Under the pieces are notes generated by a model. The model did not search any database. It had not been told where the DNA came from and was given only the letters and a program-made list of their open reading frames with translations. A stretch of DNA of 39,003 nt from Candidatus Cloacimonadota bacterium (GTDB taxonomy: Bacteria; Cloacimonadota; Cloacimonadia; JGIOTU-2), in assembly GCA_014382495.1 (NCBI GenBank), contig JACNJR010000041.1, forward strand, positions 1-39,003, written 5' to 3'. Positions 4,228 through 22,566 of this stretch are shown in pieces (the first letter of the stretch is position 1; each line of letters begins with the position of its first letter). The translations under genes were made by a program, and so were the position numbers.

Positions 4228-4956
4228 TTAATCAAAAATTTTAGGGATAATTTTTTCTAAATCCTCAGCAAATTCGGTTTTGTAAAGTTTGTCTATATTC
4301 CCAATTGCGTTTTCCAAATTTTTATCGAAATAGATTTCACCTAAAAATGGCAATTGATATTTTTCTACTTGAATTTTTATTGATGAGTTTTCAGAAAATT
4401 TCATATTTTCGATAATTCCAATGATTGGCATCTTCAATTCTAGAAGGAGATTGATTGATTTTTTCACGATTTCAAAAGCGAGTTTTGACGGAGTTGAAAT
4501 CATAATAAATTTCACTCTTTTCATAGTTCTGATGATATCTAAAGTTGTGTCGCCGATTCCTGGCGGCATATCGATAATCAGGAAATCAAGAGAACCCCAT
4601 TGAGTTATCGCAAGCAGTTCTATGATTGCATTTGAAATATCAATTCCTCGTAATGGTGCAGGATTTTCACCAGCAAAACTGATGATAGACATAAATTTTA
4701 TTCCGAAATATTTTGATGGAATAATGCCTTTGTCTTCTTTCGGAAAATCATAATTTCTTATTCCTAAAATTATATGAGTTGAAGGACCGGAAAAATCCAA
4801 ATCAAGCAGTCCAACTTTATGACCTTTTTTTGCCAAACTTGCTGCAAGAGTGGCAGATACAGAGCTTTTCCCAATTCCGCCTTTTCCGCCAGAAATTGCA
4901 ATTATTTTTCTGATATTTTTTAATCTTTTATCAATAACTTCAATTCGCGTGTCCAT
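4228..4956 (-). CDS. Mrp/MinD-type P-loop ATPase, probable archaeal-style HypB for hydrogenase nickel insertion
   Basis: The 242-residue SIMIBI-class ATPase has the deviant Walker A GGKGGIGKS (residues 23-31), the switch segment LLDLDFSGPS (50-59) and Walker B-like FLIIDMPPGIGDTT. General annotation would be Mrp/ApbC iron-sulfur carrier, but the protein contains no cysteine at all and lacks the C-terminal CxxC those carriers use to hold the cluster. It starts 3 bp after the hypA stop, with its AAGGAG ribosome site inside the end of hypA. In Thermococcales (family knowledge) a cysteine-poor Mrp/MinD ATPase replaces the GTPase HypB and works with HypA to deliver nickel to [NiFe] hydrogenase. 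The neighbour has the matching HypA subtype. ATPase class is certain; the HypB role is strongly suggested by context but unproven. No hydrogenase subunit lies in the window. Confidence 0.85.
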   Translation of the reverse strand: MDTRIEVIDKRLKNIRKIIAISGGKGGIGKSSVSATLAASLAKKGHKVGLLDLDFSGPSTHIILGIRNYDFPKEDKGIIPSKYFGIKFMSIISFAGENPAPLRGIDISNAIIELLAITQWGSLDFLIIDMPPGIGDTTLDIIRTMKRVKFIMISTPSKLAFEIVKKSINLLLELKMPIIGIIENMKFSENSSIKIQVEKYQLPFLGEIYFDKNLENAIGNIDKLYKTEFAEDLEKIIPKIFD

Positions 4957-4959
4957 AAT

Positions 4960-5373
4960 TTATCGCTCTCCTTCAACCGCATCCAGCCAGATTCCTCTCC
5001 CAATTTTTATCTCAAAATCTGGGCTTTTGCATTTTGGGCATCTGAGATAAATATGGGCAGTTTCGGGAATGAAATGTATCGATTCTGTCTCATCTTCATC
5101 AAGATTTTTTCTTGCATTTTCGAAGAGCCATTCATTTTTGCAAACGCGACATTTCAGAATTGCTTTCTCGGTTTCTATTTCTATATCGGCATTTCCAAGA
5201 ATTTCTTGTTGCGGCTGAATAACTTCTTTAAGAGCGAAATTGAAAATTTCTTCATCAATTGTCTGAAGTTCTCCAATTTTTATTACGATTTTAGTAATTT
5301 TTTTTAGATTTTCTTTTTCAGCAACTTTTAATGCTGAAGTTACAACTGCATCTGCCAGTGCCCATTCGTGCAT
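4960..5373 (-). CDS. hypA: HypA nickel-delivery protein, Thermococcales-like long form
   Basis: The 137-residue protein begins MHE, whose His2 and Glu3 belong to the nickel site in HypA proteins, and continues with GELQTIDEEIFNFALKE, typical of the family. A zinc-binding domain has C75xxC78 and C112xxC115. The 33-residue gap between the two CxxC pairs, carrying IHFIPETAH, is far longer than the roughly 12 residues of ordinary bacterial HypA and resembles my recollection of archaeal Thermococcus HypA, which also begins MHEWALAD. HypA docks on the hydrogenase large subunit and brings nickel with HypB. The ATG has a good AAGGAGT site. It is divergent from the lipoprotein gene; the 167-bp spacer holds a minus-strand TTGACA (5432-5427) but only weak -10 boxes. 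Confidence 0.9.
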   Translation of the reverse strand: MHEWALADAVVTSALKVAEKENLKKITKIVIKIGELQTIDEEIFNFALKEVIQPQQEILGNADIEIETEKAILKCRVCKNEWLFENARKNLDEDETESIHFIPETAHIYLRCPKCKSPDFEIKIGRGIWLDAVEGER

Positions 5374-11157: not shown

Positions 11158-12135
11158 TTAATGTAAAATGTCAAAAGAGATTCTTAGTATATTATGAGTT
11201 TCTTGAATCTGATATGCGATATCAAAATTAAAAGTTGTATCTCGCCAGATTTTGAGCAGTTCAAAACCAATTCCAAAACTGAATCTTCTGTTTTCGCCAG
11301 TGAATAATTCCTGCGAATATCCTGCTCGTAATGCCAACAATTTGTTGAAAAATTTCGTTTCAATTCCTGTTTTTATTTCGTCTTCACAATCGCTTGATAA
11401 CGCTTTGTCATAATCCATAGAAAAGGTGAATTTGTCGTTTTCAAAAGCATAACCGAAAATAAGGTCAACTGCTCGCGACTCGGAATATTCTCCTTTTGCT
11501 GTTCCCACATCATTCTTAGAATTCCAAAGAATATTATTTATCGGATTACGCCACATTAATCCGAATTTATCATTTTCAGAAATCATAAATTGCAATCCAA
11601 AATCAATTCCAAAACCACTTGCTGAACCAGAAATCTGGTGTTCGCCATCGCCATCAATGTATGAACCATCGTTATTATTCCCAAAAGAGTGACTATAATA
11701 TTTTAGATTCATTCCAAAATTAAATCTATCTGCAAGTGAGGGCAAACGAACCAAATTATCACTTATAAATTTACCATTTATAGCAGAAGAGAGAAATAAA
11801 ACTGCTTCAGAGAAAACATCATCACCACAATATATCATTGCGATTCCAAATGATATATTCTCTTGATTTTTGTAAGAATATCCCAAAAAAGAATAATTGA
11901 CAAGGTCAAGAAGGTTTGAATTATCAAAAGTAAAAGAATGCAGATTTTGAATATTACAAAGTCCTGCTGGATTCCAAATTATACTGCTCGGTTTATCTGC
12001 CAATGCTACAAAAGCGCCGCCCATTCCCATTGGTCTCGCTCCAAATTCATAAAAATTGGGATCAATATCATCTAATTCTGCAATTAGAAAATTAACAGCA
12101 TATAAAAACAAAACGAGCAATAATATTTTTTTCAT
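11158..12135 (-). CDS. PorV/PorQ-like outer-membrane beta-barrel protein
   Basis: The 325-residue protein has a signal peptide (about 1-19) and then FGARPMGMGGAFVALADKPSSIIWNPAGL, the characteristic opening of the PorV/PorQ (UPF0164, FadL-related) outer-membrane family. The rest alternates hydrophobic and polar residues like a barrel (FGMNLKYYSH, FGLMWRNPINN, LRISFDI at the end). In Bacteroidetes PorV shuttles type IX cargo to the surface attachment complex; many FCB genomes encode many paralogues of unknown task. It starts 4 bp after the giant gene's stop without a visible SD, suggesting translational coupling, so a role in exporting or anchoring the giant protein is a reasonable inference. 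Confidence 0.85.
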   Translation of the reverse strand: MKKILLLVLFLYAVNFLIAELDDIDPNFYEFGARPMGMGGAFVALADKPSSIIWNPAGLCNIQNLHSFTFDNSNLLDLVNYSFLGYSYKNQENISFGIAMIYCGDDVFSEAVLFLSSAINGKFISDNLVRLPSLADRFNFGMNLKYYSHSFGNNNDGSYIDGDGEHQISGSASGFGIDFGLQFMISENDKFGLMWRNPINNILWNSKNDVGTAKGEYSESRAVDLIFGYAFENDKFTFSMDYDKALSSDCEDEIKTGIETKFFNKLLALRAGYSQELFTGENRRFSFGIGFELLKIWRDTTFNFDIAYQIQETHNILRISFDILH

Positions 12136-12139
12136 AATT

Positions 12140-15100
12140 TTATTTTATTAAGATAATTGTTTTAACAATCTCTTCTTTATGATTTGCATCTTCGGCAATA
12201 ATCTGGATTACATATCGTCCATTTCTTGCCATTTTACCATTTTTTGTCATTCCATCCCAATTGAGTGTAAACTCTTCGCCAGCTTCATAATTTCCTTTTA
12301 GCATTGGACGATTTTCTGCAATTGTCCGAACCAAAGTTCCAGTTAATGTATAAATTTTTGCTGTGATTTTTGGATATCGGCTTATCTTCGAAGAGATTTT
12401 GAAAATTATTTGAAGTCCCATATTTTTGCCAATTTGGTCATACGGAGAAAATGGGTTGGGAAGTAATTTCAAGTCATAAATTCCGAGCTGTTTAGATTCT
12501 GCTACAACGCCATATTCACCCAAACAAGGAATTGAATCCAGCTGTAAATATTCATAATTTTTTCTATTGCCGTTTGATGATGCATCCACCCATTCTAATT
12601 TTTCAACATCCCAATAAGCGATAAAAATACCAGACAAATCAATTCCTTCGTCAAATTCAAAGATAATTCCTGGCATTTTGGCAAAATTGGCAGTAGATCT
12701 GATATCAAACACTGAAGCCATAAGCTCAGAAGTTACAGTTGTTTCTTGCATCGGAGAGACCTGAACTTTTTCCAAATAAAGTTTTGCTGATCCAGAACTA
12801 AGCATTGCTTCTGGTAAGGTCAAATTGCAACCTTCTCCGCTATACAAAGTATCAGGTGAATTGGGGAAATCTAATTTTATGTAAACTGTGATTTGTTTTT
12901 CTGCCGTTACTTCGGTTCCATCATTTGGATCAAACGCCCAAACTTCTAAATCAAATTGACCAACAAAGTTTGAGTCAGGATTATACAGAATACTTTCTTG
13001 AACTTTTTCAAGAGTTCCTATTATCGAATCAACTGGTTCAAATTCAAAAAAATCTACATACATCGACGAACCTTCTGCTGAAACTGTAAATGAACAGGAT
13101 TCGTTATTTTGGATTTCATTTGGTCCATCAATAAGCAAATTTGCCAAATGCATATCTTTTACCTGAATGTCTTCAGTTTCTAATCTAATTGTAATTTCTT
13201 TCAAAGTAACTTTTGCTTTTATTTTTCCTATTCCATTATTATCTGCTGCTTTAAATAAAATCAATCGTTTTTCATCCGGAATTTGCTCAATTTCACCAAT
13301 AGTTGAATCTGATAAACTCCAAAAAACAGAACCAGAAACGTCAACAGAATCATTCAGACAATTACCTGCATCATCCCAAAGATTCGCTTCAAATGTAGTT
13401 TCTTGATTGTAAGCAAAAAGTGCTTCATTTGGTGTTATGTTGGAATAATCGTGTGAAAGCATTCCTTCAGAAGTTAAGGTCCAAATATATGGAGAACTTT
13501 GGTTGCTGAATGTAATTCCAAGTGTATCCGATTGTGAATTAAACCAAAATGTTATATCACCAGATTTCAATTGTGGAGGAATTTTAAATATTAAAAGTGT
13601 GTCATTTTCATCTGTCATTTCAATTTCATATTCGTTATTATCAGCATCTTTGTAATGTAAAAATACTTGGTCATTATATGTGCCTTTGTGCAAAGATATT
13701 TTGATAGAATCCAAAGCTGATTGTGATACAATTTGTGATTTATCAAACTGAAGCGGCAATTGTTTCTCTTGAGAATAACATCGCAAAGTGTCCAAAGTTA
13801 AAGTATACGACAAAGGATTTATGTAATCTCCGAAAGAACCGGTAGATTTTGAAATTAAAATTGAATATTCTCTCGTATGAAGAGTGGAATCAGTAGAACA
13901 ATTTCCGGTAGAATCTGTATAAATCGTTGTGTTGAAATTTGCCGAAGTTATTTTTACTGAAACATTTTGAATTGGAGTTGAACCATCTTCGGTAATTGTA
14001 AATTCAATACTACACAAAACATAATCAAAAGTATAATCAATAGTTGTATCATCTGTTATTGAAATATTTAAAATGTCGTGTGAAAATAATTCATTATCGT
14101 ATTCGGCTTCAATTTGTAAATTGTAAATTCCATCTTCTAAATCCGTAAAAATGTATTCTCCATATTGGTTTGTCGATGTAGTATCAATTGGAAAATTTGT
14201 AGAATCTTTAAGAATAATGTTTGCAGAAGGTAATGCTTCATCTTCCATTTTAATAAATCCACTTACATTTGCCGCGTTCGGATTATAAATGAATTCATTA
14301 TATCTATAAACTGAATCTCCGATTGAAACAGAAATATCTAATTCCTGAAAATTGAAATTAATACTTTCATAAGTGGCATTTATTGATAAATCATAATTCC
14401 CATCTGATAATTCGTCAAATTCATATTGGCTTAGAGAGATTTCCTCTTCAAAATCATTTTCTGGACATTCAAGAATAATTGTGGCACTTGTTGGATGTAC
14501 GGTATTAGGATGATCTGTAGATTTATTTATTATCCATATTTCACCAGTTAGTTTTGATGGTTTGGGTTGTAAAATCAATTCAAGATAGCAATTATTTTGA
14601 TCTGAAGTTAGCTCGATTTCCGAAATTTCAGAAATATAATAATTTTCTTTTTCAGCATAGATTGAATAAATTCCAATAGAATCTACTTGAATCGAATATG
14701 ATCCTTCTGCATCCGTAGTATCCGAATATGTGTTGCCGTTTCTTTCGGCAAAAACTACAGCAGCTTGTAATGGCTCAGAATTTGTATTTTTCACTAATCC
14801 GAAAATTGTGAGTAATTTTTGAGTCAAATAAAAATCAACGGTTGATGGGTCAGAAATTCCACCAGATAATGAAACGATTGTATCAGGAATATCCTCATAT
14901 CCTAAATGTGAAACTGAGACGTGATATATTCCATCTTCCAAATTTGAAAATAAAATTGAACCATTTGATGTTGTCACCAAACTGTCGATAACCTCGTCAT
15001 TTTTAAATAATTTCACTTTTGCATTTGCTATACCGTCTTTTGACTCGTTTTCATAAACTCCGCCAGATATTGAATTCTCCAGAAAACTTAGATTAAATCT

Positions 15101-18100
15101 TGGAAGTTCGACCGTCTGTCCTTCATCAATTTCAACTTGTGGGAATGTTTCCTCAGCTGTAAATCCTTCTAAAATAATACTAATATCATAAGTTCCAGCT
15201 GTTATTCCCGGCACATCAAATTTACCATTTGAATCTGTTACATCGCTCATAACTTGACCACTCATAATATTGGATGCATAAACAATCACGCCCGCTTTGG
15301 GATTATCATTGTAATAAACTTCTCCAATAATATGTGATGCTTGCATAAGCTCAATATCGATACAAATTGGCTGACCATTTTCTATTCCTATTCCTTGAAA
15401 TTGACTCACCAAATCATCTCCAACCTCTGCCCAAATATCATAATATCCTGATAATCCAGTAATCGAAAAATCGCCGAATTCATTTGAATATGTTTCATTT
15501 GAAAAGCCATCAAGATTTTTTGCTGTGATAAGAGAAGAACCGACTTCAACTCCGTCATCATAAACTGTACCCAGAACTGAATTTGGAATCATATCAAGAG
15601 TAATTGAGACATCGGTTGAATCGGTCGTTAGCGAATCTGGATGTGAATAATCATTATATCCAAGTTTTGAGCAGGTTAAGGAATAATTGTGAAGTTCTTG
15701 TAAATTTGAGATAGAAAACACGCCTGCAGCGGAAGTAGTATCAATAAATTCTTCATCATTGTGACATAAAGTAACAATTACATTTTTCAAAAATGTTTCC
15801 TCAGAATTTTTTACAATTCCCGAGATGGAACCTAATTCCGGTTCAAGCTGGAAATTGTAATTTAGTATTTCAAAATCTTCCAAATCGAGCATTTCACTTT
15901 GTGCAACATATCCTGGACGAGTTGCTGATAATTCGTAATTTTCCTCATAAAGATAAGAAAACTCATAATTCCCATTTTCAGAAGTTATGAAATTTTGGAT
16001 TTCATCACCAAAAGCCAAAACAACTTCAGCATTTGAAATTGGATTTGAAGTAGTATCTTCAATAATTCCAGATATTTTTGCAGAATGAATGTCGATTACC
16101 AAATTAATATTTGTGATATTTTCGGTTTCAACAGAAATCAATGTGTCGGCATTGTCATAATCATCTGATGGAAGGTTTGAACCAATTGTCGTGGTTGTAT
16201 ATGGGTTGACATTTTCAAATATAAAAAGTCCACCGCTGTCTGTCGTATCACTCAATAATTGCTCCTGATTAAATAGGTTTATGGAAGTGGAATCAATTGG
16301 TCTGTTATCCGTGTCGATCAAATAACCGGAGATGTCTATAGAGTCTGTATATGTAAGATCAATGTTTTGAGTTGTTTCTGACCTGTGTGCCACATATACA
16401 CTATCAATAATTTTTGTCTCATACGATTGTTTGGATATGGTAAAATCGTAATTCCCTTCATATAAAAATTTGATCGAATATGTTCCGTCAGGTTGGGATG
16501 TTCCGGAATAGGTGTTACCATTTTCGGCTTGAATGGTTATCATTGCACCCTGAACCGGATCCCCGGTAACATCGTTTGTAACGGTTCCCACAAATTCCGA
16601 GGTGTGGAGAGACATTGTCAGGCTGTTTGGCATAGAATTAACGGGATCATCTTCAATTGTAAATACGGTATCAGTATTTTCCCAACCTTGTTGGTATTTA
16701 TCGGTTGCAACCGTATAAGTTTCATAAGGGGCTAATTCCTGAAGAGAAAACTGTCCGTCAGAATTTGTGATTCCCGCACTTGATGCAGTTGGTGAAGTTG
16801 CAGTTACATCTACATTTTCCAGAGTATTTCCCTCTTGATCAACCACAACACCGGTTATTGATTTGTTATTAGGAATCATTATTAATGTTGTATCATAACT
16901 TGCTTGATAAAGAGGTATTGTGTCCGGCTGAACATCTGTGTAATCTTCCAAAGAAAGAGTTATCACATAATCTCGATTTGGATTTAGATTCTGCAATGTG
17001 AAATTTCCTACCGGATCCGTTGTAGTATTTCCAGAAAATCCATCTAAACTAACTGCACAAACTTCCACATTTCCCAATCCAATACTTTCATCATCAATTA
17101 CCTTACCAGTAATAGACGCATTTGTAAGTTCCATTGTGAATTTTAATGTGAGTGTTTCATTTGGTTCAATTGTTATTAAAGTATCATCACAAACATAGTT
17201 CGTTTTGCTCGCAGAGATATTGTATTCAACATATCCTGCCAGTCCAGTTAATTGACAAAATCCATCAGAATTTGTCACATCGGAAGTAATCACGCCGGTT
17301 AAATCGTTTTCTGCAGAAATTGTTACATTGCTCAATGGATTTGAGTTTTGATTTACTACTTCGACTTTAAGGGTTGAAGTTAGAGAAGTTAATTCGGCAT
17401 TTTTGGTAATTGTTGCTCCAGCTGGAATTACAATATTAGTTAAAATTTCTATTTCGTAATTTTCTTTTGTAATAGTAATTGTGTAATAAAAACCTGGTAA
17501 AATATTTTCCAAAATATAAAATCCTGATGAATTGCTGTAGGTTGCTCCTCCGCCACCAGAAGATAGATTTGCTGAGATAAATGCATTTTCTATCGAATTT
17601 CCAATTGTAGCATCTGTTATGGTTCCTTGAATTGTGCTGAAATTTTCTTCCAAAAATAATGTTGTGTCAATCGTTGAACCAGGATTTATCTCCAAATTAA
17701 TTGTGTTTTGCAAATATCCATTCTTATATGCAGTAATCTCATACTCACCTTGGCTAATTCCAAGAGTAAATTCGCCATTGGAAGCAGAAGTGGTCTGAAA
17801 TGTATTAGTATCTTGCACAGCTTGAATTGTTACTTGTCCTAAAGGATATAGATTGCCTTCATAATCATAGGATTTCACATAACCATTTACAGATGAAGAA
17901 AGTGCAGAAAGGGTTAATTCGGTTGAGAAGGATTGTTCAAGTTCTAAGGGTACTTCGGTTGTTGCTTCGTCAGATGAATATCCTGTTTTACTTCCAATAA
18001 TGTTATATTCTACCAATGGTGTTACAATTAAAGAAAAATTTCCATAAACGCCACTAACTGTAGAATAAGAATTTTCAGGATTGTTAACTTCCTCAATATC

Positions 18101-20848
18101 TATAGAAACATTTCTTAGGACATTTCCTGATTGAGTTACAGTTGTGCCTGTGATATACGCTTCATAAGGAGTTAATTCAATATTTTGATTGGAAATTGTT
18201 TGACCTGGTCCAACTGTAATATCAAGTGTATCGCCTTCGTCGCAGATAAAACCATTTTTCTCAGCCCAAATTTTATATGTTGCAGAATAGAGATTTAATT
18301 CGTAATTTCCATCATTATCCGAATTTGTCCCTTGGATATAAGAGCCATTGCTGACTTTAAAACCGGTTATTTGAGCATTTGCAATGCTGTTTCCAGAAGA
18401 AAGAATTGTTCCAGAAATTACGCTTGCATTTGGATTCAAAACAAAATTTATACCTTGAATAGTTTGTCCTGCGCCAATAGAAATTGTCTGCGGTTCACTG
18501 CTTGTGTATCCACTTTTAGTTGCTGAGACAAGATATGTTTCGGGACTTACATCGATACTATAATTTCCTGAATTATCTGTAATATCCTGATTGTCGCCGG
18601 CAAAAACAGTTACATCGGAAAGTCCGCTCCCGCTTGATGTTACCGTTCCTTCTATATAGCTGTCGTCAGGAAGAAGTATGAAATTTATACCATTGACAGT
18701 TTCGCCGACAGAAAGATTTAATTGATGTGTATTTTGGGAAGTATAATTATCAAAAATTGCGGTTAATTCATAATTTCCACTTAAAAGATTTAATGTATAA
18801 TTTCCATATTCATTTGTATAAGTGCTAACCGGATTTCCTGCAGATGGAGTAGCTCTTATCTCAACATCTTCTAATACAATAACGCTATTATTTGCATTTC
18901 CATTGACGATATTCGCTTGAGGTGTAAGTATAATATCACTCAAAGTCATTGATGAAGGAGATGAGATTGTAATATCAACAATAGTAGGGTCTGGCGAATA
19001 ATATCCATTTTTCTGCGCATAGATAGACCATTCGCCAAGTTCCAATCCATTAAATTGATATAAACCACTTGAATTTGTAGATTTTGTTCGTGTGATATCA
19101 CCTTTTGTTGCAGTAACAGTTACACAAGAAAGAGGAACGCCAGAAGTATTCTTCACGGCACCTGTTACATCTTTATCGTTCAAAACTAACACCAAATCAT
19201 CAAGATTTGCATTCTCGCCTAAACCGATGTTATATTCTATTGAAGATTGAAGCGAATAACTTTCTTTATCCGCAGTGATTGTCCACATTCCGGGAATAAC
19301 AGCGATAGAATAATTTCCGTTTGAAGTCGTATTTGTTCTGATTTCCCCATCATCTTTTTCAGCCGTAATCTCACAATTTTCTATAAGATATCCATTTGTG
19401 TCTACAACTGAACCATAAAAGAAACAGGTAGAATATTCTAAAGTTATTGGCACATATACAGTATCACCTGGCACAATTAGGTTTGCAGTTTCAGAATTCG
19501 TTTCGTATCCTTCTTTGCTGGCGGTAAGAATGTATTCTCCAAGTGGAAGTGTTTTGTATTCATATCCTGACTGTCCAACCGATAATGGAATATTATCGCC
19601 AGAACCTTCAACAGGGTCAATGATAACATTTGCAAAACCAATTCCAATCAAATCTTCTTCAACTTCGTGATTGACAAATATCTTAAATGTTCCGACCGGA
19701 ATATGATATGTAAATTCAAATGTTTCGCTGCAAGCACTATTTCCATCTTCGTCGGAAGCAATTACTTTCCAAACATATCTCGCATCAACCAAAATTGAAC
19801 TCGCATTGAAATCGATTAAATTATTTGTTGTAACTTCATTCCAAACTGGATATTGAACTTCGCTTCCAGATTCAATTATTATTTCAGAAAGATAAATATG
19901 GTAAGTTGCTGCTTCTTCTACATCACTCCATTCGAATGTGATGTAATCGTCGCCATCGATAATTGTTGTGTCGCCTGGAGTTGTGTTTTCTGGACTAATG
20001 AGTTCTGGTGCTTCGATTGTAATTTCTGCTGCATAAGTAAATCCAAACGGGGTTGATGCAACATCTGAAGTCAAAAGCGGGTCATTGCCGTAATTATTCA
20101 TAACAATCCAATTATAGTCAATTTCATTAACAAGTGGCGGAGCATCGTATGAAAAATTTCCAGATGGATCGGGGGAGCCATAATCTGCGAAATTATTTGG
20201 AGTAATTACCGACCAAATTGGATTTAGTCCAGTTACAACTAAATTGCCTTCGTTATCGTGAGTAAGCGAAAAAGGGCTGTCTGACAAAATTAAAAAATAA
20301 TATGGCACACCTGGATTAGTATCCCAACTAAAAGTAGGCACTTGTTCTTCAATCACTGTTCCATTTGCTGGTGCATTCATACTTACTGCATCCGATGATT
20401 CAATAATTAGCTGAAATTCTGCTGAGGTCCACTCTTGCACCGCATTGTATATTACGCAATAATAAACTCCAACTCCAATTCCAATATCATCTGCACACGT
20501 TTCAATACTTGATCCATCGTTAATATTTACGCCAAAACCCGAAATTCCGCTTGGTATATAATTATCTATTTCAGTTCCACCTGGAGCAGTTGAATAATAC
20601 AAAATACCTAAACTATCTTCTGGAAGCCAGGAAATTCCAAATGTTTCATCTGCTTTGAAGAGATCCATCGGAATTTCTATCAACACAATTTCATTATCAC
20701 GATTTGAAGGGTTAAAAAGTAAATCCTGATTTATATTGCTTTCTGAAAATAGATTAAAATTTGCCGAAAGAAAATTGAAGTTTGCTATAAATATTCCAAA
20801 GCAAATCAAAATTACAAATTTTCTAATGTTCAATTTTTTCATTTTCAT
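12140..20848 (-). CDS. Giant (2902-residue) secreted protein with about 22 carboxypeptidase-regulatory-like domains and a C-terminal sorting-like domain
   Basis: After a signal peptide (about 1-30), residues about 35-380 hold strand-rich and FN3-like modules (ITFEWSDVEEAATYHIYLSE). A PEGA-like unit follows near 385-465. From about 469 to 2353 there is an uninterrupted array of about 22 domains of 80-90 residues with the pattern ISGxV...PLxNVxVTA...T.S.GNYSI.....G.Y.ISA.K.GY, typical of CarboxypepD_reg-like prealbumin folds. A mixed region follows, and the last about 110 residues (LKLLPNPFSPYD ... AKIYTLTGTLVRTI ... GRYVIQII) form a FlgD-like/type A sorting-like domain. The likely role is a long surface fibre, adhesin or stalk; no enzymatic domain is seen. 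The start overlaps the upstream stop as TAATG; a second ATG two codons in is possible. Confidence 0.9.
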   Translation of the reverse strand: MKMKKLNIRKFVILICFGIFIANFNFLSANFNLFSESNINQDLLFNPSNRDNEIVLIEIPMDLFKADETFGISWLPEDSLGILYYSTAPGGTEIDNYIPSGISGFGVNINDGSSIETCADDIGIGVGVYYCVIYNAVQEWTSAEFQLIIESSDAVSMNAPANGTVIEEQVPTFSWDTNPGVPYYFLILSDSPFSLTHDNEGNLVVTGLNPIWSVITPNNFADYGSPDPSGNFSYDAPPLVNEIDYNWIVMNNYGNDPLLTSDVASTPFGFTYAAEITIEAPELISPENTTPGDTTIIDGDDYITFEWSDVEEAATYHIYLSEIIIESGSEVQYPVWNEVTTNNLIDFNASSILVDARYVWKVIASDEDGNSACSETFEFTYHIPVGTFKIFVNHEVEEDLIGIGFANVIIDPVEGSGDNIPLSVGQSGYEYKTLPLGEYILTASKEGYETNSETANLIVPGDTVYVPITLEYSTCFFYGSVVDTNGYLIENCEITAEKDDGEIRTNTTSNGNYSIAVIPGMWTITADKESYSLQSSIEYNIGLGENANLDDLVLVLNDKDVTGAVKNTSGVPLSCVTVTATKGDITRTKSTNSSGLYQFNGLELGEWSIYAQKNGYYSPDPTIVDITISSPSSMTLSDIILTPQANIVNGNANNSVIVLEDVEIRATPSAGNPVSTYTNEYGNYTLNLLSGNYELTAIFDNYTSQNTHQLNLSVGETVNGINFILLPDDSYIEGTVTSSGSGLSDVTVFAGDNQDITDNSGNYSIDVSPETYLVSATKSGYTSSEPQTISIGAGQTIQGINFVLNPNASVISGTILSSGNSIANAQITGFKVSNGSYIQGTNSDNDGNYELNLYSATYKIWAEKNGFICDEGDTLDITVGPGQTISNQNIELTPYEAYITGTTVTQSGNVLRNVSIDIEEVNNPENSYSTVSGVYGNFSLIVTPLVEYNIIGSKTGYSSDEATTEVPLELEQSFSTELTLSALSSSVNGYVKSYDYEGNLYPLGQVTIQAVQDTNTFQTTSASNGEFTLGISQGEYEITAYKNGYLQNTINLEINPGSTIDTTLFLEENFSTIQGTITDATIGNSIENAFISANLSSGGGGATYSNSSGFYILENILPGFYYTITITKENYEIEILTNIVIPAGATITKNAELTSLTSTLKVEVVNQNSNPLSNVTISAENDLTGVITSDVTNSDGFCQLTGLAGYVEYNISASKTNYVCDDTLITIEPNETLTLKFTMELTNASITGKVIDDESIGLGNVEVCAVSLDGFSGNTTTDPVGNFTLQNLNPNRDYVITLSLEDYTDVQPDTIPLYQASYDTTLIMIPNNKSITGVVVDQEGNTLENVDVTATSPTASSAGITNSDGQFSLQELAPYETYTVATDKYQQGWENTDTVFTIEDDPVNSMPNSLTMSLHTSEFVGTVTNDVTGDPVQGAMITIQAENGNTYSGTSQPDGTYSIKFLYEGNYDFTISKQSYETKIIDSVYVAHRSETTQNIDLTYTDSIDISGYLIDTDNRPIDSTSINLFNQEQLLSDTTDSGGLFIFENVNPYTTTTIGSNLPSDDYDNADTLISVETENITNINLVIDIHSAKISGIIEDTTSNPISNAEVVLAFGDEIQNFITSENGNYEFSYLYEENYELSATRPGYVAQSEMLDLEDFEILNYNFQLEPELGSISGIVKNSEETFLKNVIVTLCHNDEEFIDTTSAAGVFSISNLQELHNYSLTCSKLGYNDYSHPDSLTTDSTDVSITLDMIPNSVLGTVYDDGVEVGSSLITAKNLDGFSNETYSNEFGDFSITGLSGYYDIWAEVGDDLVSQFQGIGIENGQPICIDIELMQASHIIGEVYYNDNPKAGVIVYASNIMSGQVMSDVTDSNGKFDVPGITAGTYDISIILEGFTAEETFPQVEIDEGQTVELPRFNLSFLENSISGGVYENESKDGIANAKVKLFKNDEVIDSLVTTSNGSILFSNLEDGIYHVSVSHLGYEDIPDTIVSLSGGISDPSTVDFYLTQKLLTIFGLVKNTNSEPLQAAVVFAERNGNTYSDTTDAEGSYSIQVDSIGIYSIYAEKENYYISEISEIELTSDQNNCYLELILQPKPSKLTGEIWIINKSTDHPNTVHPTSATIILECPENDFEEEISLSQYEFDELSDGNYDLSINATYESINFNFQELDISVSIGDSVYRYNEFIYNPNAANVSGFIKMEDEALPSANIILKDSTNFPIDTTSTNQYGEYIFTDLEDGIYNLQIEAEYDNELFSHDILNISITDDTTIDYTFDYVLCSIEFTITEDGSTPIQNVSVKITSANFNTTIYTDSTGNCSTDSTLHTREYSILISKSTGSFGDYINPLSYTLTLDTLRCYSQEKQLPLQFDKSQIVSQSALDSIKISLHKGTYNDQVFLHYKDADNNEYEIEMTDENDTLLIFKIPPQLKSGDITFWFNSQSDTLGITFSNQSSPYIWTLTSEGMLSHDYSNITPNEALFAYNQETTFEANLWDDAGNCLNDSVDVSGSVFWSLSDSTIGEIEQIPDEKRLILFKAADNNGIGKIKAKVTLKEITIRLETEDIQVKDMHLANLLIDGPNEIQNNESCSFTVSAEGSSMYVDFFEFEPVDSIIGTLEKVQESILYNPDSNFVGQFDLEVWAFDPNDGTEVTAEKQITVYIKLDFPNSPDTLYSGEGCNLTLPEAMLSSGSAKLYLEKVQVSPMQETTVTSELMASVFDIRSTANFAKMPGIIFEFDEGIDLSGIFIAYWDVEKLEWVDASSNGNRKNYEYLQLDSIPCLGEYGVVAESKQLGIYDLKLLPNPFSPYDQIGKNMGLQIIFKISSKISRYPKITAKIYTLTGTLVRTIAENRPMLKGNYEAGEEFTLNWDGMTKNGKMARNGRYVIQIIAEDANHKEEIVKTIILIK
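13780..19438 (-). repeat. Protein-level array of about 22 CarboxypepD_reg-like domains
   Basis: Counted by eye from recurring unit starts such as DSYIEGTVTSSGSG, ASVISGTILSSGNS, NASITGKVIDDE, SAKISGIIEDTT and ASHIIGEVYYND. Units are 80-95 residues and clearly diverged; I saw no near-identical DNA copies, so this is an old array and not a recently expanded one. The boundaries are approximate. Confidence 0.8.
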
Positions 20849-22566
20849 TAAAACTCATAAGTCAATGTTGTTCTCAAAATTGGTGAAGGCAAAGCGATTA
20901 GATTTAAATCGATAAATGAATTTTTATAAACTCTGAAACCAAAACCAATTGCTAAAGAACCAAGCGGGATATTTTTCATTGGCTCAACTGTTTCGTCATT
21001 ATCATCTTTGAAACCTTCTAATATCTGGTCGGCAAGAATAAACTGTCCGCTTATTGCCAATCTTCCGTAGCCGACTGCAAACTTGAAATTGTGCTGCATC
21101 TTTAATCCAAGTGTGTAGCTCTTGTGGGTTGTATCTGCATAATCTATGAAATCGCCATTTTCACTCTTATTTCTGCCGTCTTCATATACATCACATTCAT
21201 AATGAAAAGAGAGTTCTCCTAAGGGTTTTTTATAAGATAAGATAAATTTCCAAGGACCATTTTTTGCTGCTGCGCTAAATTCAATTCCACCGGGATAAGA
21301 TAATTCCAGTATATTACTTTCGTAAACGGTTCTGTTTGTATATGTAAGTTCAGCAGGTTTTAGCAGTTCCATGTCAAAAAGTTCCTCGCCATCTAAATTT
21401 AATGCCCCAAGAGTATGTTGAACGATTCTTAAAGAGCCGTTAAGATTTGCTTTTTTCGGCAAATTATAAACAGCATCAAGATATAGCCAATTGTTGGGCT
21501 TATAACTACACGCAAGTTTTGCGCCAAACAGATTTTTATGAAAATCTATTTCAATCGAATCATTCAAAGTATTTCTATAACTAACATTGGGGTCATTAAA
21601 AGCAACATTAATATCGATATCGCCGCCAGTTTGACGAATCATACCGTTTATTTTTGCAGTTAGGTTTGAAACAATGTTACAATCCAAAAAATTCACTCCG
21701 ATTCCGACAGACAAATCGTCACTAATTTTTCTCCCGAATCCAATATCCACTTGGCTAAAATCAATATTAAGATTAGAAAAAAGTTCAATGCCAAGAGGAA
21801 CCAATGTTGTTTCAAGATTTCCATCACTATTTGTCGAAGTATCTTTTATAGTTACAGAAATTCCGTTTCCGATAAGTTCAAAATCAAGCATCAAAGGTTT
21901 ATGAAAAGCGATTCCCCAGCTTCCAAATTCTGTTTGTGAAAATGTATAAGCGAAACCATTCAATCCGCCTATCTGCCCGCCGAAAATATCTATTTCTGGA
22001 TATGTTGGCTCCAAATCTTCAGATTTCATATCTTCAATTCCGTTATCAACTTGCGTCTCTATCATATTGTTCAATTGCCAATAATAATCGCCAGCATTCA
22101 CGGAAAATGATGGGCTGTAATCCAGCGATAATTTTCTCACATTTATTGGAATTTCTATCCTACTAATTTCAAAATCTTTAAGAATTCCAATTAAATCTTT
22201 TCTGGAAGTTTTTTCCACAGGAAAAATCAACGGCACGCCGTCAATTTCCAATCTATCCACAGCTTTTTTTAGGTATTCTATCGATGCTTTTTCAATATCG
22301 ATTGTTGTATATTTCTCGATGAAAACAAGTCCCGCAGGATTGTTGCAAGCAAGGGATGGGTCGTTAATTATCGAAGAAATAGTATTGCCAAAGTTGCTGC
22401 TGTGCGCTCCAATTCCCATCAAGGCGCTGCTATAAAATTTAAAGTTAATTTTATGATTCCCACCTTCAAATGTCGTTATTTCATTATCTGCTAAAAGTGG
22501 AGAAATTAAAATAAATAAAATGACAAAATTACTTATTAAAAATTTCACAATTTTTTTCTTATTCAT
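20848..22566 (-). CDS. Outer-membrane beta-barrel protein (PorV/FadL-like)
   Basis: The 572-residue protein has a signal peptide (about 1-26). The segment ALMGIGAHSSNFGNTISSIINDPSLACNNPAGLVFIEKY resembles the start of PorV/FadL-type barrels, with the NPAGL signature. Many amphipathic strands follow (VGIGVNFLDCNIVSNL, FAVGYGRLAISGQF) and the C-terminus is ILRTTLTYEF; a terminal Phe is the classical outer-membrane insertion signal. It lies between the TPR-barrel gene (14 bp upstream) and the giant gene (1-bp overlap), with no clear SD. A dedicated pore or anchor for the giant protein is inferred; substrate transport as in FadL is the alternative. Family membership is likely, the exact subgroup uncertain. 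Confidence 0.8.
   Translation of the reverse strand: MNKKKIVKFLISNFVILFILISPLLADNEITTFEGGNHKINFKFYSSALMGIGAHSSNFGNTISSIINDPSLACNNPAGLVFIEKYTTIDIEKASIEYLKKAVDRLEIDGVPLIFPVEKTSRKDLIGILKDFEISRIEIPINVRKLSLDYSPSFSVNAGDYYWQLNNMIETQVDNGIEDMKSEDLEPTYPEIDIFGGQIGGLNGFAYTFSQTEFGSWGIAFHKPLMLDFELIGNGISVTIKDTSTNSDGNLETTLVPLGIELFSNLNIDFSQVDIGFGRKISDDLSVGIGVNFLDCNIVSNLTAKINGMIRQTGGDIDINVAFNDPNVSYRNTLNDSIEIDFHKNLFGAKLACSYKPNNWLYLDAVYNLPKKANLNGSLRIVQHTLGALNLDGEELFDMELLKPAELTYTNRTVYESNILELSYPGGIEFSAAAKNGPWKFILSYKKPLGELSFHYECDVYEDGRNKSENGDFIDYADTTHKSYTLGLKMQHNFKFAVGYGRLAISGQFILADQILEGFKDDNDETVEPMKNIPLGSLAIGFGFRVYKNSFIDLNLIALPSPILRTTLTYEF

Follow-up and report, generated by a model that had tools for sequence, protein, structure and literature searches.

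A long-form hypA gene paired with an ATPase-type hypB in Cloacimonadota and other bacteria: a probable Thermococcus-type nickel-insertion module for [NiFe] hydrogenase maturation

Introduction

Hydrogenase maturation in bacteria is usually described as dependent on the GTPase HypB. A nickel-insertion module consisting of HypA and the ATPase mmHypB is already known from Thermococcus, and the 2013 discovery paper on mmHypB of T. kodakarensis reportedly described mmhypB as adjoining hypA and as conserved among species that have no hypB. The nickel ligands of T. kodakarensis HypA, including His98, have been described (PMC7055735). A 2025 review ascribed the use of ATP to 'some archaeal HypB homologues' (PMC12134894), and CooC is a MinD-type ATPase that takes part in nickel insertion (PMC9164220). 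Our literature searches on ATPase-type or Mrp-type HypB, outside the scope of which lay the 2013 and 2015 mmHypB papers, returned no bacterial case. It is the wide bacterial range of the module that we found described nowhere.

The stretch of DNA analysed here, called the window, is the whole contig C3 (JACNJR010000041.1, 39,003 nucleotides) of a Cloacimonadota metagenome-assembled genome (MAG) of 1.37 Mb, 94% complete and 0.08% contaminated. A preliminary description of its sequence had taken two adjacent genes to suggest a GTPase-HypB-independent hydrogenase maturation module outside archaea.

Results

The hypA gene and its product

The two genes are located on the same strand, with mmhypB immediately downstream of hypA:

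Window 4960–5373, minus strand: hypA, long form, nickel metallochaperone of 137 aa (assigned from NF003008 score, PDB relatives, and nickel and zinc ligands)
Window 4957–4959, minus strand: 3 bp separating the hypA stop codon from the mmhypB start codon
Window 4228–4956, minus strand: mmhypB, Mrp/MinD-type ATPase, ATPase-type HypB of 242 aa (assigned from Pfam/NCBIfam, PDB search, tree and AlphaFold2 model)

The short gap is consistent with translational coupling. The N-terminus of the window HypA reads MHEWALADA, and the two CxxC motifs (residues 75–78 and 112–115) are spaced by 33 residues; on both points, the MHEWALAD start and the spacing, the preliminary description was exact. The cysteines constitute the zinc site C75xxC78...C112xxC115, and M1-H2-E3 the MHE nickel site. 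Long HypA is marked by 31–33 residues between the CxxC pairs and an NF003008 score over the cut-off. With the NCBIfam model NF003008/PRK03824 the window HypA reached 176 bits (cut-off 125), and with the general HypA model TIGR00100 73.9 bits, short of the cut-off of 88.1. A PDB sequence search gave T. kodakarensis HypA as the closest solved relative (3A43/5AUN, 1e-32); H. pylori HypA was a much weaker match (1e-5). Residue H100 aligned with T. kodakarensis His98, a nickel ligand. By its spacing, its NF003008 score and its possession of MHE and the His98 equivalent, the window protein is a long (Thermococcus-type) HypA. H100 was kept in 82 of 82 aligned long HypA, M1-H2-E3 in 81 of 82 and the four zinc cysteines in all, a conservation that is partly a selection effect of the scan patterns MHEWALAD or E[SD][ILM]HFIPE, though these are two patterns. 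All 29 short HypA, of which 28 came from Cloacimonadota and one from a spirochaete, had a gap in the H100 column.

The expectation that the protein would stand apart from ordinary short HypA was borne out in quick trees resting, for HypA, on few columns: the split between long and short HypA had an SH-aLRT of 93, or of 92 with the insert removed, and Cloacimonadota HypA formed one clade (support 99). The earlier likening to Thermococcales HypA held with a qualification. The protein does group with the long Thermococcus-type HypA, but the type is not specific to Thermococcales and the tree position is a mixed bacterial and archaeal one.

The ATPase and its relation to Mrp carriers

The window ATPase has the deviant Walker A motif GGKGGIGKS (residues 23–31), which matches KGGxGK[ST], and the Walker B motif LIIDMPPG. 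It matched PF10609, named 'NUBPL iron-transfer P-loop NTPase' in Pfam, with 191 bits, and its NCBIfam matches were to MrpORP/ApbC only, all below cut-off; GTPase HypB (TIGR00073) was not among them. Family-level annotation of this kind, with the PF10609 score and the sub-cut-off MrpORP match, would make the protein an ordinary Mrp/ApbC/NBP35 iron-sulfur carrier that lies beside hypA by chance. We consider this very improbable and rejected it as largely refuted by the motif, the tree, the structural model and the pairing with hypA. The cluster motif of Mrp, CPxC after ENM, was found in 0/74 mmHypB relatives, as against 19/19 Mrp inspected and the true Mrp of the same genome (CPHC, contig C56). 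The 242-aa product contains neither CPxC nor any cysteine, as had been noted from the sequence together with the 3-bp distance from hypA. The argument drawn from this, that a protein free of cysteine is no iron-sulfur carrier, stands for the window ATPase but is no rule for the family, in which 36 of 74 members are cysteine-free; it is CPxC after ENM that 74/74 lack.

In a quick tree a branch with an SH-aLRT of 100% separated mmHypB (n = 74) from Mrp (n = 20), and the window ATPase fell on the mmHypB side, in a clade with mmHypB and away from true Mrp as the preliminary description had proposed. The closest solved relative was T. kodakarensis HypB (3VX3/5AUN, 1.6e-70), compared with 1.6e-38 for A. 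fulgidus Mrp. An AlphaFold2 model, built from an alignment of 44 relatives (mean pLDDT 92.3), had T. kodakarensis HypB chains as all of its top 12 PDB matches (TM 0.86–0.95, identity 44–47%), the value of 0.95 being reached with HypAB-bound HypB (5AUO/5AUN). True Mrp/Cfd1/ApbC came next (TM 0.78–0.83, with Mrp/ApbC at 0.78–0.81), and the predicted structure resembles HypB far better than Mrp. Among solved structures, the nearest to the window HypA and ATPase were the two partners of a single crystal complex, T. kodakarensis HypA/mmHypB. Pairing with hypA recurred in further genomes of the family and at 74 of 80 separately retrieved long-HypA loci, and is not due to chance. Automatic naming of the gene as Mrp/ApbC, by the Pfam 'NUBPL' label or the NCBIfam matches, would be wrong, as had been anticipated.

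The hydrogenase pathway of the host genome

The window genome encodes a single HypA. The genes hypF-hypC-hypD-hypE stand in a row on contig C67, and contig C89 carries a group-3-like [NiFe] hydrogenase, whose large subunit retains the four ligand cysteines (RICGVC, DPCLACATH), together with a small subunit resembling VhuG and a maturation protease. No gene for GTPase HypB scored above cut-off in this genome, the best matches of the HypB model being FtsY and MeaB, the latter adjoining methylmalonyl-CoA mutase. The whole-genome picture agrees with the earlier proposal: hypF-C-D-E and a [NiFe] hydrogenase are present, GTPase HypB is absent, and mmHypB replaces it. The hypA-mmhypB pair, hypFCDE and the hydrogenase are located on three different contigs, and their link in this genome is one of co-presence, not of one operon.

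Some neighbouring genes were recorded as well. On C89 a LarA-family (nickel-pincer racemase-like) gene (L009:8463–9851, minus strand) immediately precedes the genes for the small and large subunits of the hydrogenase. Genes for citrate synthase, aconitase and isocitrate dehydrogenase follow farther downstream, and malate dehydrogenase flanks the LarA-family gene on the opposite side. The window also encodes a predicted secreted protein of 2,902 aa with many carboxypeptidase-regulatory-like repeats (12140–20848, minus strand), flanked by two outer-membrane-like proteins (11158–12135 and 20848–22566).

Distribution within Cloacimonadota

We surveyed 125 Cloacimonadota genomes, 17 of them from the window's family. 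Genes for mmHypB were present in 12/17 family genomes and in none outside the family; GTPase HypB was found in 0/17 family genomes and in 34 genomes outside, including one of another family of the same order. None of the 125 genomes carried both. A Fisher test of this co-occurrence gave p = 1.2e-5, a value that is not independent of descent and reflects mostly one replacement event; the spread across other phyla described below carries more weight as evidence. The genomes are MAGs, and absence of GTPase HypB in single cases could be due to incompleteness.

Five family genomes were scored as lacking mmHypB; in two of them (G115 and G124) the contig stops right after hypA. Contig ends split the hypA-mmhypB pair in G116 and G120, and the family genome G118 is only 61% complete. 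HypD was present in G109 and G111, yet neither HypA nor either HypB type was found in these two. Overall 16 of the 17 family genomes had HypD, and the one without it is 57% complete. Apart from the window genome, 12 family genomes were searched for [NiFe] large subunits, and all of them had one. Only the hypA-mmhypB pair is conserved within the family; the flanking genes mostly differ. In genus g2 of the family (L025, L027, L028) the two genes are often separated by about 170–570 bp of non-coding sequence with repeats of the type TTTCGTGxxTTTCGTGG, perhaps because an intergenic repeat that is spreading has inserted into the operon.

Distribution beyond the phylum

The two patterns named above were used to scan 85,462 species genomes, with the phylum taken from record titles. 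This yielded 80 long-HypA loci, of which 31 were bacterial, from about 12 phyla according to the titles, and the others archaeal. The bacteria comprised Cloacimonadota, KSB1, Zixiibacteriota, Stahlbacteria/WOR-3, Bacillota, Actinomycetota (Hydromicrobium), Elusimicrobiota, Caldisericota, Spirochaetota, Fraserbacteria, Dependentiae, a Deltaproteobacterium (Myxococcota) and further bacteria. An ATPase gene followed long hypA on the same strand at 74/80 loci with a median gap of 8 bp. The remaining six were three loci that lie on or close to the end of a contig (L148, L152, L160), one running into masked sequence (L161), one in which HypA was not read as one open frame and the ATPase is nevertheless present (L213), and one from which the adjoining ATPase is truly missing (L162). 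At five bacterial loci (L159, L166, L172, L186, L204) the pair stands at the end of a cluster that also holds hypF, hypD and hypE, and at L188 it is preceded by hypE and followed by hydrogenase genes. In an Elusimicrobia locus (L174:4398–4646) a second, overlapping HypA-like reading frame lies right after hypA and may represent a partial duplication or a frameshift.

Only one of 38 long-HypA genomes, a Spirochaetaceae, had a GTPase HypB above cut-off. In this genome (MAG fen_1364, G145) the GTPase HypB lies beside its own short HypA (L225), and the long HypA-mmHypB pair is located elsewhere (L208). A [NiFe]-family large subunit was detected in 48/50 genomes searched and not found in the other two (G126, G138); the large-subunit model also matches NuoD, and six short matches that were read out all had both cysteine motifs.

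Bacteria and non-Thermococcales archaea were interleaved in the trees, which suggests several transfers between the domains; 'archaeal-style' accordingly names the place of discovery and not a proven donor. The distances between HypA proteins correlated with those between mmHypB proteins (r = 0.87; none of 999 permutations reached this value). Genes that travel as a pair would be expected to show such a correlation, although shared descent alone would also raise r.

Other targets and other origins

The pair could be thought to insert nickel into an enzyme other than hydrogenase, either a nickel-dependent CO dehydrogenase, by analogy with CooC, another MinD-type ATPase of nickel insertion (PMC9164220), or a LarA-type enzyme, a LarA-like gene being adjacent to the hydrogenase genes in the window genome. 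However, no bacterial CO dehydrogenase scored above cut-off in the 12 family genomes searched, including the window's, and a single weak match of 24 bits was seen in G122. The frequency of HypD in the family, the [NiFe] large subunits in the 12 others searched and in the window genome (G000), and the position of the pair inside hypFCDE or hydrogenase clusters in several bacteria argue for hydrogenase. Nickel reaches LarA as the NPN cofactor, a product of LarB, LarC and LarE, and this speaks against LarA as the target. We rejected another nickel enzyme as the target on the missing CO dehydrogenase, on HypD and the [NiFe] subunits, and on the hyp clusters, and regard it as having only a slender chance of being correct. 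Archaeal contamination of a bacterial MAG, conceivable in that both protein types are known from archaea, is the least probable reading and was rejected because the pair occurs repeatedly in bacteria, with the ATPase in 12 family genomes, a family HypA that forms one well-supported clade, contamination of the MAG at 0.08%, and the pair present on a 3.67-Mb contig of a Deltaproteobacterium (Myxococcota; L221) and a 262-kb contig of Spirochaetota (L193).

Discussion

We propose, with a probability of about 0.9, that the products of hypA and mmhypB would carry out nickel insertion during [NiFe] hydrogenase maturation, in the form described for Thermococcus. The proposal is based on gene identity, fold, conserved nickel and zinc ligands, pairing, the remaining pathway genes and the absence of GTPase HypB; gene identity, pairing, pathway genes and that absence equally support the module independent of GTPase HypB, outside archaea, that the preliminary description had suggested. 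Complex formation, nickel affinity, the ATP cycle and all biochemistry are carried over from T. kodakarensis. By that analogy ATP-bound mmHypB would dimerise and bind two HypA molecules, and H100 of HypA (His98 in T. kodakarensis) would be brought beside the N-terminal M1-H2-E3, creating a square-planar nickel site of nanomolar affinity. Loading with nickel would then trigger ATP hydrolysis, and HypA would depart with the metal.

With modest confidence, we lean towards a wider view in which long hypA-mmhypB is a mobile two-gene cassette that repeatedly displaced GTPase HypB/short HypA in archaea and bacteria alike, in the latter across about a dozen phyla. It would serve group 3 and group 4 [NiFe] hydrogenases, and each type of HypB would require a particular type of HypA, since His98 is found in long HypA alone. 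The Spirochaetaceae genome that holds both pairs is a natural test of this view and makes partner specificity directly testable. If the nickel-insertion proposal itself is right, bacterial genomes that seem to be missing HypB can be complete after all, bacterial 'Mrp' genes of the mmHypB kind bear the wrong name, and two NTPases can interchangeably drive nickel insertion, each together with the HypA that matches it.

The window ATPase shares superfamily, fold and deviant Walker A with the Mrp/ApbC/NBP35 carriers (PF10609). Those proteins have ENM...CPxC for the cluster, unlike the window ATPase, and a true Mrp is encoded separately in the same genome (C56). CooC, the nickel ATPase for CO dehydrogenase, is likewise a MinD-type ATPase of nickel insertion, but it serves an enzyme that was not found in the window genome. 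GTPase HypB (TIGR00073, G3E family) with short HypA (TIGR00100) acts at the same pathway step and is the pair used by other families of Cloacimonadota; it differs in NTPase family and nucleotide, and short HypA is without the His98-bearing segment. The closest system is that of T. kodakarensis. Its mmHypB (3VX3, 5AUN–5AUQ; Sasaki 2013, Watanabe 2015) is about 47% identical over the whole chain (TM 0.95) and is likewise encoded right after a long hypA, in a genome without GTPase HypB, and has no CPxC; the window protein differs in its bacterial host and in its tree position, its clade being a separate one outside Thermococcales, in a region where bacteria and archaea are mixed. T. kodakarensis HypA (3A43, 5AUN; NF003008) is 42% identical to the window HypA and has the same MHE and His98 ligands, 33-residue spacing and four zinc cysteines, while the window HypA comes from a bacterial host and has two additional residues near positions 52–57.
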